DNA of 32,066 nucleotides, taken from the NCBI GenBank assembly GCA_945872435.1, contig CAMBYP010000009.1, positions 1 through 32,066 of the forward strand, given 5' to 3'. Numbering within the stretch: position 1 is the stretch's first letter; each line of letters opens with the position of its first letter. The notes below the pieces were generated by a model. That model was not told where the DNA came from, did no database searches, and saw nothing but the letters and a program-made list of their open reading frames with translations. The stretch comes from an uncultured Mycoplasmatota bacterium (GTDB lineage Bacteria; Bacillota_I; Bacilli_A; RF39; UBA660). Positions 20,878 through 25,162 of this stretch are shown here, piece after piece. The position numbers and the translations under genes are program-made.

Positions 20878-22161
20878 ATGCAGAAAAAATCTTTGATGCC
20901 AGCTGATACTTATATTGTGACTTCTAAAACAATTTTAGCGAATGAAGATCATAAAATTTTGACTAGTTTATATCAACCAATCGTTGGTGCTATGTCTATT
21001 AGTCTATATTTTAGTTTATGGTCTTATTTAGATGGTAGTGAATGTCTTTCATTAGAATGGACCCATCATCAATTGATGGCTAATATGGGAACGAAATTAA
21101 CTGATATAGAAATGGCACGTAATAAATTGGAAGCAATTGGACTTTTAAAAACATATTTTAAAGAAGGGCCGATGAATCATTATATTTATCAATTGTATGC
21201 ACCACTTTCTAGTGCTGAATTTTTTCATAATCCTATTTTAAACACTACTTTACAGAATAATGTTGGGAAAAAAGAATATGAAAAACTATTAGAACGTTAT
21301 CAGTGTCCAAAATTGCCACTGCATGAATTTCAAGATATTACATGTAAATTTAGTGATGTTTTTGAAAGTATTTCTGCTTATCAAGTAAACGAAGATAATA
21401 ATTTAAAACAAAGAGTAAAAAGAGGAATTGAATTAACTTCAAAAATTGATTTAGAACATGTATTGTCTATGGTTCCAGAGGATTACTTACAACAATCTAG
21501 TATCACGCGTGATATGAAAGATTATATTTATAAATTATCTTTTATTTATGATTTTGATGATGAATCGTTACTTCGTATTTTAATGAATTCTATCAATGAA
21601 AAGAAAATGATTGATAAAGAGTTATTAAAAAATCAGGCGAGAAATTTTTATCGTTTTGAAAATCAAGGAAAAATGCCTACATTAGTTTATAAAAGTGAGC
21701 CAGAATTAAAAAGAATTAGTAATCATGCACCGATGACGAAAAAAGCAAAATTAATTTACCAATTTGAAACAACAACACCACATGATTTTTTGGCATTAAA
21801 ATATGGTGGAGTAGAACCAACGAAACAAGATTTGATGATTTTAGAGTATTTATTAGTAGAGTTGAAATTGAATCCTGGGGTTGTGAACGTTTTAATTGAC
21901 TATGTTTTAAAGATTAATCATAATAAATTAACAAGAGCATTTATTGAAACAATTGCTGGACAGTGGTGTCGTGAAAAAATTGAAACGGTAGAAGATGCAA
22001 TGAATCAATGTATTAATGAAAAAAAGAGAAAAGAAGCAACTCCAAAGATTATAAAGCAGTCTGTAAAAAAACCAAAATGGTTTGATGAAAACCCTAAAAT
22101 AGAACTTGCTACTCCAGAAGAAATGAAGGAAATGGATGAATTTTTAAAGCAATTTGAATAG
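20878..22161 (+). CDS. dnaB: replication initiation/membrane attachment protein DnaB (DnaD-like)
   Basis: 427-aa homologue of Firmicutes DnaB, which with DnaD and DnaI loads the replicative helicase at oriC and at stalled forks. An N-terminal winged-helix-like region (about residues 15-110: LTSLYQPIVGAMSISLYFSLWSYL) is followed by a helical DnaD/DnaB C-terminal domain. GGVEPTKQDLMILEYLLVELKLNPGVVNVLIDYVL is characteristic. A basic tail ends in KKPKWFDENP. The dnaI gene follows within 10 nt, as in Bacillus dnaB-dnaI. The start is preceded by GGTG and immediately follows the promoter. Confidence 0.88.
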   Translation: MQKKSLMPADTYIVTSKTILANEDHKILTSLYQPIVGAMSISLYFSLWSYLDGSECLSLEWTHHQLMANMGTKLTDIEMARNKLEAIGLLKTYFKEGPMNHYIYQLYAPLSSAEFFHNPILNTTLQNNVGKKEYEKLLERYQCPKLPLHEFQDITCKFSDVFESISAYQVNEDNNLKQRVKRGIELTSKIDLEHVLSMVPEDYLQQSSITRDMKDYIYKLSFIYDFDDESLLRILMNSINEKKMIDKELLKNQARNFYRFENQGKMPTLVYKSEPELKRISNHAPMTKKAKLIYQFETTTPHDFLALKYGGVEPTKQDLMILEYLLVELKLNPGVVNVLIDYVLKINHNKLTRAFIETIAGQWCREKIETVEDAMNQCINEKKRKEATPKIIKQSVKKPKWFDENPKIELATPEEMKEMDEFLKQFE

Positions 22162-22171
22162 AGGTGAAGAC

Positions 22172-23089
22172 ATGAAAACAATGAAAGAATCAATAAAAAT
22201 AAGCCCATTAAAAAATTTAAATGAAGTTCTTGACAAAGAATATAATGAGGCTTTAAAAAATCCTGTTTTTGAAGAAATTGTTACAAAGTTAAAAATAGAT
22301 CATGATATTTTAAAGAGTTATACTTCTTCTTTATTAGATAGTGCTGAAGAGTATGAACATTGTAAAAATTGTAAGAATTTATTAGGATGTAAAAATAAGA
22401 TTACGGGTCATTGTTATTTGCCAATGAAAAATGGAAATGGTTTAGAGTTTGGTTATAAGGCTTGTAAAAAATATCAAAAAAAACAAGAAGAACAAAAATA
22501 TTTAGAAAATATGCATTTATTTCATGTCAGTGATGAATTATTACATGCTTCTATGAAAGATATTTATAAAGAAGATCGTAAACGTTTTCCTATTTTTAAA
22601 TGGGAACAACAATTTTTAAAAAAATTCGAGAAGGATATTCATCAAAAAGGGCTTTTTTTACATGGATCCTTTGGAAGTGGAAAGAGTTATATATTAGCTG
22701 CTTTATTTCATGAATTAGCGAAAAAAGGAAATCAATGTGCAATTTTGTTTTGGCCTGAATTTTTAAATCATAATAAAGGGTTGTACCCATCTGAGTTTCA
22801 ACTTGTATTAGAAAAAATGAAAAAAGTTCCGCTTTTATTGATTGATGATATTGGTGCTGAAAATACAACGGCATGGAGTAGGGATGATGTGTTGATGCCT
22901 CTTTTACAATATCGTATGGATCATAAATTAGCGACATTTTTTACATCAAACTTAAATTACGAAGAATTGGAAGAACATTTTAGTATTTCCAAAAATAAAG
23001 TGGATATTGTAAAAGCACGACGTATTATGGAACGTATTCGATATTTAACTGATGAAATTGAATTAGTTAGTGATAATTTAAGAAATTAA
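22172..23089 (+). CDS. dnaI: primosomal helicase loader DnaI
   Basis: 305-aa AAA+ ATPase that loads the replicative helicase on single-stranded DNA. The N-terminal domain has a zinc-binding cluster with Cys at about 64, 67, 73 and 81 (CKNCKNLLGC then HCYLP). The C-terminal ATPase has Walker A GSFGSGKS (165-172), Walker B LLLIDDIGAE and sensor-1-like FTSNLNYEEL. RRIMERIRYL provides the arginine-rich end. ATG 22172 follows GAGGTGAAG; the TTG at 22154 in the ORF track lies inside dnaB and before the ribosome binding site. It is coupled to dnaB. Confidence 0.93.
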   Translation: MKTMKESIKISPLKNLNEVLDKEYNEALKNPVFEEIVTKLKIDHDILKSYTSSLLDSAEEYEHCKNCKNLLGCKNKITGHCYLPMKNGNGLEFGYKACKKYQKKQEEQKYLENMHLFHVSDELLHASMKDIYKEDRKRFPIFKWEQQFLKKFEKDIHQKGLFLHGSFGSGKSYILAALFHELAKKGNQCAILFWPEFLNHNKGLYPSEFQLVLEKMKKVPLLLIDDIGAENTTAWSRDDVLMPLLQYRMDHKLATFFTSNLNYEELEEHFSISKNKVDIVKARRIMERIRYLTDEIELVSDNLRN

Positions 23090-23106
23090 ATCATATATTA
23101 TACAAA

Positions 23107-23135
23107 TTGACAAATGAATGTGCTTATGTTAGAAT
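23107..23135 (+). promoter_or_regulatory. strong promoter of the OLE RNA candidate
   Basis: TTGACA, 17 nt, TAGAAT, placing transcription start near 23142, a few nt before the closing helix. Confidence 0.8.
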
Positions 23136-23141
23136 GCTATC

Positions 23142-23762
23142 TAGAAATGGCGCATTATTCTAGTCAATTTCTTTTATTAGGAAGACGGGGCTAAAAATCC
23201 GTTAAAGAGCACATCTGTGAAACATTTGGTGCTTGCTTCATACGCCCAGTTTGGGGTGAGTGCTGGATGGATGAAATATTGGGCGATCGTAATGGCATAC
23301 GACCTCGACCCAATATTTCGTGGAGACCTATACTTGTTATTAGCCTATACATGTTTTCATTGACGGACTAGTAACGACTTAGGATAAAACCTACTTTGCG
23401 GGGCAACTTGTGAGTAGTGTAGCTTGTCTTGCGTGATATTTGGGGATAAAAGATCTACATAAAGTGACAATGGCCAACGTTATTTTATGATTGCTTTTTG
23501 AAACAAGTGTTGCAAAAAAGAATTAGTAATAAAAGAATTGTTGAGGAAATCTCCTAGAGTGTTTTGTTAACATAGGATTGCAGTGTACACTCAGTGGTAA
23601 TCAAGTCATATACTAGGTGACAGTATATCAAAAACTTTAAAGGGGAACCGCTATTTGGTAACGAATAGTAGTTTTTGGGGAAATCCTACTTGACCTAAGG
23701 TGCAAAGTTTACTATGTTAATAGCCATTTAAAAGTAAAAATGAGGGGCGGTTGCTCCTTTTA
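23142..23762 (+). ncRNA. ole: large structured RNA, probable OLE RNA
   Basis: A stretch of about 620 nt with no reading frame, visibly richer in G and C than its surroundings. The ends pair: AAATGGC (23145), ATTA (23154) and TAGT (23161) match ACTA (23711), TAAT (23718) and GCCATTT (23723) in register. Inside, GAAATATTGGG (23273) pairs with CCCAATATTTC (23309), and ATATACT/AGTATAT forms a hairpin at 23608-23628. A strong promoter precedes it. An OapA-family membrane protein starts 18 nt after its 3' end. OLE RNAs are about 600 nt and are normally linked to oapA; they form a membrane-associated RNP tied to Mg2+ and stress responses. The structure is seen; the family name rests on size, architecture and neighbour, not on an alignment. 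Confidence 0.8.
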
Positions 23763-23766
23763 TTTA
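23741..23766 (+). terminator. weak hairpin at the 3' end of the OLE RNA
   Basis: GAGGGGC pairs with GCTCCTT (with G-U pairs) around GGTT, then TTATTT. It may allow readthrough into oapA, for which no separate promoter is visible. Confidence 0.5.
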
Positions 23767-23779
23767 TAGAAAGGAAATT

Positions 23780-24391
23780 ATGAAACGATATAGTAAGGTG
23801 AAAGATGAAATTGCTTCATTAAAGCGTGAAGATCAAAAAAGAGCAAATAAATTAAAAGAAAAACAAAGAAAAAATAAAAAATGGATTATACAAATTTTTA
23901 TTATGGCTTTTTTTATTTCTGTAATGTTTTCATTTGTTTCTGAAACATTTATTCCAAAACTTTCACTTGTATTTGGAATTTTGTTAATTGTTGTTTTTAT
24001 TGCATTAGGAATTGTTTTTGATATGATTGGTGTAGCTGTGACAGCAAGTGATGAAAAACCTTTTCATTCTATGAGTGCTAGAAAAGTAAGAGGTGCAAAA
24101 GTAGCTGTTCTTTTGAAAAAAAATGCAGATAAAGTTGGTAGTTTTTGTAATGATGTGATTGGAGATATTTGTGGTGTAGTATCTGGTAGTGCAGGAGCTA
24201 TTATTGCGAGCTCGATTGCAAATCAAACTTCTTTATCACCATTTCTTCTTTCTTTAATTGTGACTGGTTTGATTGCTGCTTTTACAATAGGAGGAAAAGC
24301 GATTGGAAAATCAGTAGCAATTAATCAATGTAATATGATTTTATATGAAGTCGCTAAAGTAATATCTTATTTTTATCATCCTAAAAAATAA
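23780..24391 (+). CDS. oapA: OLE-associated membrane protein OapA family (CorB-like)
   Basis: 203-aa protein with a very basic cytoplasmic N-terminus (about residues 1-36, Lys/Arg-rich and suited to RNA contact) and four hydrophobic segments (about 37-57, 62-88, 133-150, 155-178). The conserved core is FDMIGVAVTASDEKPFHSMSARKVRGAK, then ADKVGSFCNDVIGDICGVVSGSAGA, which carries the acidic DVIGD motif. From memory, proteins with this core are often annotated as Mg2+/Co2+ transporter CorB-like and include OapA, the partner of OLE RNA. AAAGGAAA precedes the ATG. Its position directly behind the RNA is the decisive context. Transport activity is unproven. Confidence 0.85.
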   Translation: MKRYSKVKDEIASLKREDQKRANKLKEKQRKNKKWIIQIFIMAFFISVMFSFVSETFIPKLSLVFGILLIVVFIALGIVFDMIGVAVTASDEKPFHSMSARKVRGAKVAVLLKKNADKVGSFCNDVIGDICGVVSGSAGAIIASSIANQTSLSPFLLSLIVTGLIAAFTIGGKAIGKSVAINQCNMILYEVAKVISYFYHPKK

Positions 24392-24405
24392 GAATTACTT
24401 TTTTT
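24356..24405 (+). terminator. long terminator inside the oapA 3' end
   Basis: AAAGTAAT plus TCTTATTTTT pair with AAAAATAAGA plus ATTACTTT (18 bp, one bulged A) around a 9-nt loop, then T's. The 5' arm lies in the oapA coding sequence. Confidence 0.85.
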
Positions 24406-24406
24406 C

Positions 24407-24435
24407 TTGTATTTCTAACTATAGTTCGATATAAT
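24407..24435 (+). promoter_or_regulatory. rsmE operon promoter
   Basis: TTGTAT, 17 nt, TATAAT. The ORF-track ATG at 24434 falls inside the -10 box, so it cannot be the start. Confidence 0.7.
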
Positions 24436-24451
24436 GATTGCGGTGAAGTTT

Positions 24452-25162
24452 ATGCAGAGATATTTTGCTTTAAAAAAAGAAAAAAATTATTTTATTCTTC
24501 CAAATGATGATTATCATCATATTTTAAGAGTCATGAGAGGAAAAGAAAATGAGCATATTGAAGTAGTGTATGAAAATTGTGTATATTTATGTGCTTTAAA
24601 AAATGTAGAACAGTCTTTAACAATTGAAATTGATTCTTTATTAGAAAAAGGTGTAAAAGAACGTGAAATGATATTTTGTATTCCATATTTAAAAGAAACC
24701 AAAATGGATTTTATTCTTCAAAAGGGTACTGAAATGGGAGCAAGCATGTTTATTTTATATCCTGCAACATTTAGTATGGTAAAAATAGATGATAAAAAAT
24801 TACCTAAGAAATTAGAACGATGGAATCGAATTTTAAAAGAGGCAAGTGAACAGTCAAAACGAACTAATATTCCTCAAATTCAAACAATTTCTCATTTACG
24901 TGATTTAAAAAATATGACAGGTGTTAAGTTTTTGTGTAGTACACGTGAAAAAGAAAAAACTATTAAAAAATTTTTGCAATCACAATCTAATTGTGATAAA
25001 CTGATAGTAGTAATTGGTCCTGAAGGAGGACTATCTGAAGCAGAGGAAAAACAATTAAATGAAATTGGTTTTGAAAGTATTACTTTAGGAAATCGCATTT
25101 TACGAGTAGAAAGTGTACCACTTTTCGTTTTAAGTTGTTTAAATTATGAATTTATGGAGTGA
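24452..25162 (+). CDS. rsmE: 16S rRNA m3U1498 methyltransferase RsmE
   Basis: 236-aa SPOUT-class methyltransferase modifying U1498 in the ribosomal decoding region. An N-terminal PUA-like part (HHILRVMRGKENEHIEVV) is followed by the knotted domain. There QKGTEMGASMFILYPA, RWNRILKEASEQSKRTNIPQI, LIVVIGPEGGLSEAEEKQL and LGNRILRVESVPLFVLSCLNYE are all diagnostic, the last two forming the SAM-binding knot. The start is ATG 24452, behind CGGTGAAG and downstream of the promoter. In Bacillus, rsmE (yqeU) sits next to mtaB (yqeV); here one extra gene separates them. Confidence 0.95.
   Translation: MQRYFALKKEKNYFILPNDDYHHILRVMRGKENEHIEVVYENCVYLCALKNVEQSLTIEIDSLLEKGVKEREMIFCIPYLKETKMDFILQKGTEMGASMFILYPATFSMVKIDDKKLPKKLERWNRILKEASEQSKRTNIPQIQTISHLRDLKNMTGVKFLCSTREKEKTIKKFLQSQSNCDKLIVVIGPEGGLSEAEEKQLNEIGFESITLGNRILRVESVPLFVLSCLNYEFME

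Follow-up and report, generated by a model that had tools for sequence, protein, structure and literature searches.

OLE is among the largest conserved bacterial RNAs and is intricately folded; to our knowledge its biochemical activity is known in no species. Nearly all work on it has been done in a single alkaliphile. A full-length form, a variant 1 from TANB77 and a variant 2 from RF39 that lacks P7 and P8 were described by Fernando and Breaker in 2024 (PMC11332333), who also reported that the reduced-genome, uncultured gut Bacilli of RF39 and TANB77 carry OLE, largely without OapB and OapC. In Halalkalibacterium halodurans, in-line probing assigned the J4a/5 strand to a kink turn (k-turn) with J5/6 that forms upon OapC binding (PMC9723947) and is named 1a in PMC12054373, while in the cryo-EM structure of protein-free Clostridium acetobutylicum OLE, J4a/5 pairs with J6/7 instead (1b; PMC12286853). 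The ribosomal protein bS21 shifts this k-turn region in H. halodurans (PMC12054373), and L9.3 is seen as a kissing loop in cryo-EM of OLE. Here, we compare with these systems a locus from an uncultured bacterium of the order RF39; the window is the whole stretch of DNA analyzed, 32,066 nt of contig CAMBYP010000009.1 (GCA_945872435.1).

The ole-oapA locus and its RNA

The window forms contig 9 of a 1.07-Mb genome in 60 contigs, approximately 94% complete, in which a scan with the Rfam model finds one OLE RNA copy. Its gene order is dnaB, dnaI, ole, oapA, rsmE, and the locus is a bona fide full-length OLE RNA beside its membrane-protein partner OapA in a reduced, uncultured Bacilli genome. The first-pass annotation, made from the letters alone, had proposed such a pair, transcribed from a promoter of its own in a small genome of the Bacilli type, and the Rfam match, the OapA alignment and the promoter scan agree with it. 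The unit comprises:

23107-23135, + strand: sigma-A-type ole promoter, TTGACA (23107-23112), 17-nt spacer and TAGAAT (23130-23135) with extended TG; top promoter-like site of the region, 11 of 12
23131-23743, + strand: OLE RNA gene (ole), full-length type, matched end to end by RF01071 (model positions 1-616; 412 bits against a covariance-model cut-off of 50 bits; E 6.6e-118)
23742-23759, + strand: terminator-like hairpin and T tract between ole and oapA, 18 nt long; the sole terminator-like site in the scan of the region
23770-23775, + strand: oapA ribosome-binding site, AAAGGA, from sequence
23780-24391, + strand: oapA, 203-aa OLE ribonucleoprotein (RNP) membrane protein with a CNNM-like transmembrane fold (alignment, Pfam, fold match)

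Several properties attributed to the region on first reading hold up. It contains no convincing open reading frame (the longest in 23120-23770 is 53 aa), it is richer in G/C than its surroundings (37.3% versus 27.7% for the window, with 0.6% of 600-nt windows as high), and its fold, proposed to contain hairpins, is far more stable than those of shuffles (z -5.1). Like the RF01071 members of H. halodurans and C. acetobutylicum, the RNA covers all 616 model positions, has P6, P7, P8, P9, L5, L6, J4a/5, J6/7 and the 3'-domain hairpins, and adjoins oapA. It is unlike them in its AU-rich stems, in having lost the J5/6 strand of k-turn 1a, in the lack of an anti-Shine-Dalgarno (anti-SD) mimic in P6, and in lying between dnaI and rsmE, and its host is unlike theirs in lacking OapC, MpfA and apparently OapB. 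OLE variant 2 (PMC11332333) shares the host type, reduced gut Bacilli without OapB or OapC, and such short forms occur in the window's family, but the window RNA is not variant 2: it belongs to the long forms and retains 96 nt of P7-P8.

The promoter had been called strong, and the site at 23107-23135 is indeed the best of the region; the pattern TTGACA...TGnTAnAAT is the same in three genus relatives, and 51 of 59 OLE RNAs of the family are preceded by a pattern of the extended -10 type. We infer the transcription start, with the RNA itself probably beginning near 23142. An 18-bp terminator proposed to lie before rsmE is not recovered: the scan has no site 3' of oapA, where the fold is ordinary (z 0.13), and the only hairpin is the one at 23742-23759. 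This hairpin (fold of 23728-23775, -11.8 kcal/mol, z -2.25) recurs in three genus relatives with different letters in its stem, and most OLE transcripts probably end there, with read-through giving oapA mRNA. Overall, the promoter and terminator scans return no more sites than shuffled sequence, so the case for both elements rests on conservation. A single strong promoter would thus drive ole and then oapA, and termination after ole would leave an abundant OLE RNA of approximately 600 nt.

The helices and the dimer loop of the RNA are placed as follows:

23147-23151, + strand: terminal helix, 5' strand (AUGGC), partner 23723-23727; covariation of the outer helix
23723-23727, + strand: terminal helix, 3' strand (GCCAU); covariation of the outer helix
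23565-23575, + strand: long-range 3'-domain helix, 5' strand (UGUUAACAUAG), partner 23712-23722; covariation
23712-23722, + strand: long-range 3'-domain helix, 3' strand (CUAUGUUAAUA); covariation
23273-23283, + strand: P6, 5' strand (GAAAUAUUGGG), partner 23309-23319; sequence and Rfam alignment
23309-23319, + strand: P6, 3' strand (CCCAAUAUUUC), without a CCUCC anti-SD mimic; sequence, Rfam alignment and family comparison
23471-23476, + strand: L9.3 loop UGGCCA, self-complementary, corresponding to the kissing loop in the OLE dimer; palindromic 6-mer

The 11-bp internal helix of the first-pass annotation exists and is P6. A long interrupted helix joining the two ends of the RNA, with compensatory changes expected at 23145/23723, stands only in part. 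In 62 full-length family OLEs and 21 Clostridial OLEs, compared with shuffled columns that ignore shared ancestry, the outer helix 23145-23151/23723-23729 (7 pairs) is 75% canonical versus 65% in shuffles, with 85 double changes versus 34.5, which gives modest support to the outermost 5 pairs, 23147-23151/23723-23727. The inner parts of the end-to-end helix (ATTA/TAAT and UAGU/ACUA) do not exceed shuffled columns in pairing, show 0 to 1 double changes, and were rejected. Their 3' strand pairs instead with 23565-23575 in the competing Rfam helix 23565-23575/23712-23722, where compensatory changes among relatives are present (91% canonical versus 61% shuffled; 289 double changes versus 87).

For the dimer loop, 41 of 67 family L9.3 loops hold a palindromic 6-mer, versus 9.6 expected, and five different palindromes occur. 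Palindromic loops with differing letters speak for dimerization in the lineage. By analogy with the cryo-EM structures, the window RNA should dimerize through its 5' domain, including L9.3, and these OLE dimers may dock on dimers of the four-helix OapA.

OapA and its predicted fold

The annotation had also described a four-TM OapA with CNDVIGD and one further motif; both motifs and all four helices are borne out, and the protein groups with OapA at 37 to 60% identity to OLE-adjoining OapAs outside the genus. Compared with eleven other OLE-linked proteins of the family, it shows 37 to 84% identity, with 26 columns invariant over the 12. At least 572 OapA relatives are present in the genome collection, and the best 80 of these derive from gut, rumen and other metagenome-assembled genomes plus a few isolates, for example Alkaliphilus transvaalensis, whose OapA lies beside its OLE and is 44% identical to that of the window. 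OLE RNA, whole or partial, is found at 77 of these 80 loci. No OapA was found on viral contigs.

The Pfam CNNM family matches OapA weakly (2.9e-5, below the gathering cut-off), as already published (PMC11332333), and a sequence search against the PDB returned no match. In a Foldseek search of the PDB with the AlphaFold model (pLDDT 83), the only confident matches are six CNNM/CorC Mg2+ transporter chains, with modest TM-scores of 0.43 to 0.53. OapA is thus predicted to have the CNNM/CorC type of transmembrane fold, resembling in this model the MpfA/CorC/CNNM transporters (MtCorB, bacterial CorC), from which it differs in lacking CBS and CorC_HlyC domains and in its subthreshold Pfam CNNM score. 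It resembles other OapAs in adjoining ole, in its 203-aa length, long membrane helices and shared invariant motifs, and in its CNNM-like fold; it is unlike them in its 37 to 60% identity outside the genus. By analogy with H. halodurans, OLE and OapA would form a membrane-located RNP that tunes divalent-cation handling and stress responses.

At three loci with short OLE RNAs (L019, L020, L024), OapA lacks the charged N-terminus of approximately 30 residues seen in OapAs of long OLEs, suggesting from the sequences that this N-terminus co-evolved with the missing RNA parts.

Distribution and partner proteins

The placement of the locus had been thought to extend the known distribution of OLE, yet its occurrence in RF39 and TANB77 gut Bacilli was already published in 2024 (PMC11332333). 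The value of the locus is therefore comparative, as a fresh OLE/OapA example within an established family and not a new class. Beyond the 2024 paper, we add the order-wide absence of OapC and MpfA, a closed oapB slot in 12 genomes, and k-turn strands that are kept or lost jointly.

The sample of the order comprises 288 genomes from 102 genera of one family. Of these, 166 carry OLE and 171 carry OapA: both are present in 165, OLE alone in 1, OapA alone in 6, and neither in 116. OLE matches are strong in approximately 107 cases and weak in 55, mostly short forms. Of 60 relatives, 24 carry OLE, all of them in the window's own family, and 0 of 23 other Bacilli do. The size of the window's genome, its relatives among gut metagenome-assembled genomes and the mixture of long and short OLE forms agree with a placement in RF39.

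The dnaI-ole-oapA-rsmE arrangement (window positions 20878-25162) was seen in the genus alone, and in other members of the family ole and oapA are found together in many differing contexts, as if moving as a cassette. The two genes are unlinked in genome G006, where ole (L124, 6734-7342) stands by itself, flanked by a glycosyltransferase gene and recG, and oapA (L125, 4924-5523) lies upstream of rpsL-rpsG-fusA. In Bacillus, this is the place of ybxF/oapC. Two genome bins hold two OLE RNAs on separate contigs: G028 (C14 and C3; L006 and L025/L126) and G240 (C37 and C101), the latter with OapA adjoining both. These are either second copies or binning errors; the second OLE of G028 was considered as a degenerate copy and rejected, because a contig end cuts it. 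At loci L028 and L095, OapA is intact and no OLE RNA lies nearer than approximately 6 kb; ole may sit elsewhere in those genomes.

No L7Ae protein scores over the cut-off, and hence no OapC is found, in any of the 288 genomes, the window's own included, whereas an L7Ae paralogue is present in 21 of 23 other Bacilli (over the cut-off in 19) and OapC in 16 of 21 Clostridial genomes with OLE. MpfA-type CorC/HlyC proteins are likewise found in 0 of the 288 genomes versus 20 of the 23 other Bacilli. The 116 genomes with neither OLE nor OapA are also without MpfA-type CorC_HlyC; as no genome of the order has MpfA, the inverse relation between OLE and MpfA is no sign of replacement here.

For OapB, a Pfam KOW search returned L24 and NusG only, with a model that misses OapB even in a known carrier, so we judged OapB by its usual slot between map and infA instead. 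In A. transvaalensis, this slot holds a protein matching OapB (PDB 7k9b, E 4e-14); in the window's genome and 11 family relatives the map-infA gap is 4 to 66 bp, i.e., closed, and in four further genomes no map gene lies beside infA. OapB is thus very probably missing, as judged at that slot, and a copy elsewhere is possible. OapB and OapC are usual but not defining features of OLE-bearing genomes, since RF39 and TANB77 can, according to published work (PMC11332333), dispense with both. The window's genome does encode bS21. In H. halodurans, an anti-SD mimic serves bS21 binding, and P6 of the window lacks it (CCUCC occurs in P6 of 0 of the compared family and Clostridial RNAs), which makes bS21 binding, suggested by analogy with H. 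halodurans, doubtful.

Kink-turn strands and competing readings

Both strands of the cryo-EM-type J4a/5-J6/7 k-turn are there by sequence in the window RNA:

23209-23222, + strand: J4a/5 k-turn strand (GCACAUCUGUGAAA), with C23215, a 3-nt bulge and G23219-A23220; core invariant in the 73 family RNAs keeping the strand
23264-23276, + strand: J5/6 and 5' edge of P6, the k-turn 1a partner in H. halodurans, consensus lost here; family comparison
23320-23328, + strand: J6/7 k-turn 1b strand (GUGGAGACC), present exactly when J4a/5 is present; GAGAC 97 to 100% conserved

With motifs that we defined ourselves on MAFFT alignments of related sequences, J4a/5 and the GAGAC of J6/7 occur together in 73 of 109 family RNAs and are both missing from 36, with 0 discordant cases; on a 3'-domain tree, parsimony puts the joint losses at approximately 6. 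Core letters of both strands are 97 to 100% conserved in the 73 RNAs keeping them, whereas the J5/6 consensus UAAGG/UUAAG is present in 3 of these 73 versus 14 of 21 Clostridial OLEs. In L010 and L168 both strands are gone although the P8 hairpin is still there, so the coupling of the strands is not merely a consequence of P7-P8 deletion. The short forms in the window's family lack both k-turn strands, which we did not find in the text of PMC11332333, nor did we find co-retention of the strands without OapC described in the main texts of the OLE papers cited here. Position 84 shows no covariation with either candidate partner strand. The pattern suggests that k-turn 1b is retained without OapC while the 1a partner strand has drifted, and that the k-turn is part of the RNA architecture and not a dock for OapC alone; J4a/5 could also be retained owing to another tertiary contact.

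We are confident that ole and oapA form a two-gene unit under one strong promoter, and that its products, as a pared-down membrane RNP, would work without OapC, very probably without OapB, and in a cell without MpfA-type exporters. The k-turn would be kept as RNA architecture, perhaps aided by bS21. For the order at large, the evidence seems to us evenly poised for a pared-down RNP of RNA and OapA, perhaps with bS21, in which J4a/5-J6/7 is a constitutive architectural joint that persists or disappears as a whole whether or not OapC is there, with k-turn 1a belonging to OapC-bearing lineages. Were this so, the order would serve as a natural experiment in which OLE structure intrinsic to the RNA can be told apart from that induced by proteins. 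The observations also bear on the live disagreement over whether J4a/5 partners J5/6 (PMC9723947) or J6/7 (PMC12286853), as here it is J6/7 that tracks J4a/5.

The near-invariance of the k-turn core is of a degree expected of a protein site, and an unrecognized protein might have replaced OapC on the same k-turn, so that the complex still needs a k-turn binder; bS21, which the order has and which shifts this region in H. halodurans (PMC12054373), would be in keeping with that idea. We consider such a substitute unlikely, given that L7Ae over the cut-off is absent from all 288 genomes and that C. acetobutylicum OLE makes the J4a/5-J6/7 k-turn as RNA alone in cryo-EM (PMC12286853). The absence of the partner proteins, together with weakly matching short forms in 55 of the 166 OLE-positive genomes and the 116 of 288 genomes with neither gene, could alternatively be taken for the stages of a cassette decaying under genome reduction, in which partners went first, short variants followed and both genes were lost last. 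Decay of this kind appears improbable: the window RNA is complete from end to end, its core elements do not vary and its helices show compensatory changes, nearly every carrier has an intact oapA, and the genus conserves both promoter and terminator.

That the 600-nt region is a highly structured leader of the oapA mRNA and not a separate RNA would fit the one promoter for both genes and the short ole-oapA gap in most loci. We hold this to be very improbable, because a terminator-like hairpin separates the two, G006 carries a full-length OLE and an oapA on different contigs in unrelated contexts, and OLE is a known trans-acting RNP RNA. With the two-gene, pared-down RNP as the preferred reading, a lineage that has the whole RNA without OapC, MpfA and apparently OapB bears on the minimal needs of OLE and OapA.

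Finally, three genera contain both a long OLE with the k-turn and a shortened, k-turn-less OLE: g31 (G067/G034), g68 (G137, G230/G076, G187) and g85 (G104/G156). The occurrence of both forms within single genera indicates that the switch, by cassette transfer or by reduction, has been recent and repeated.
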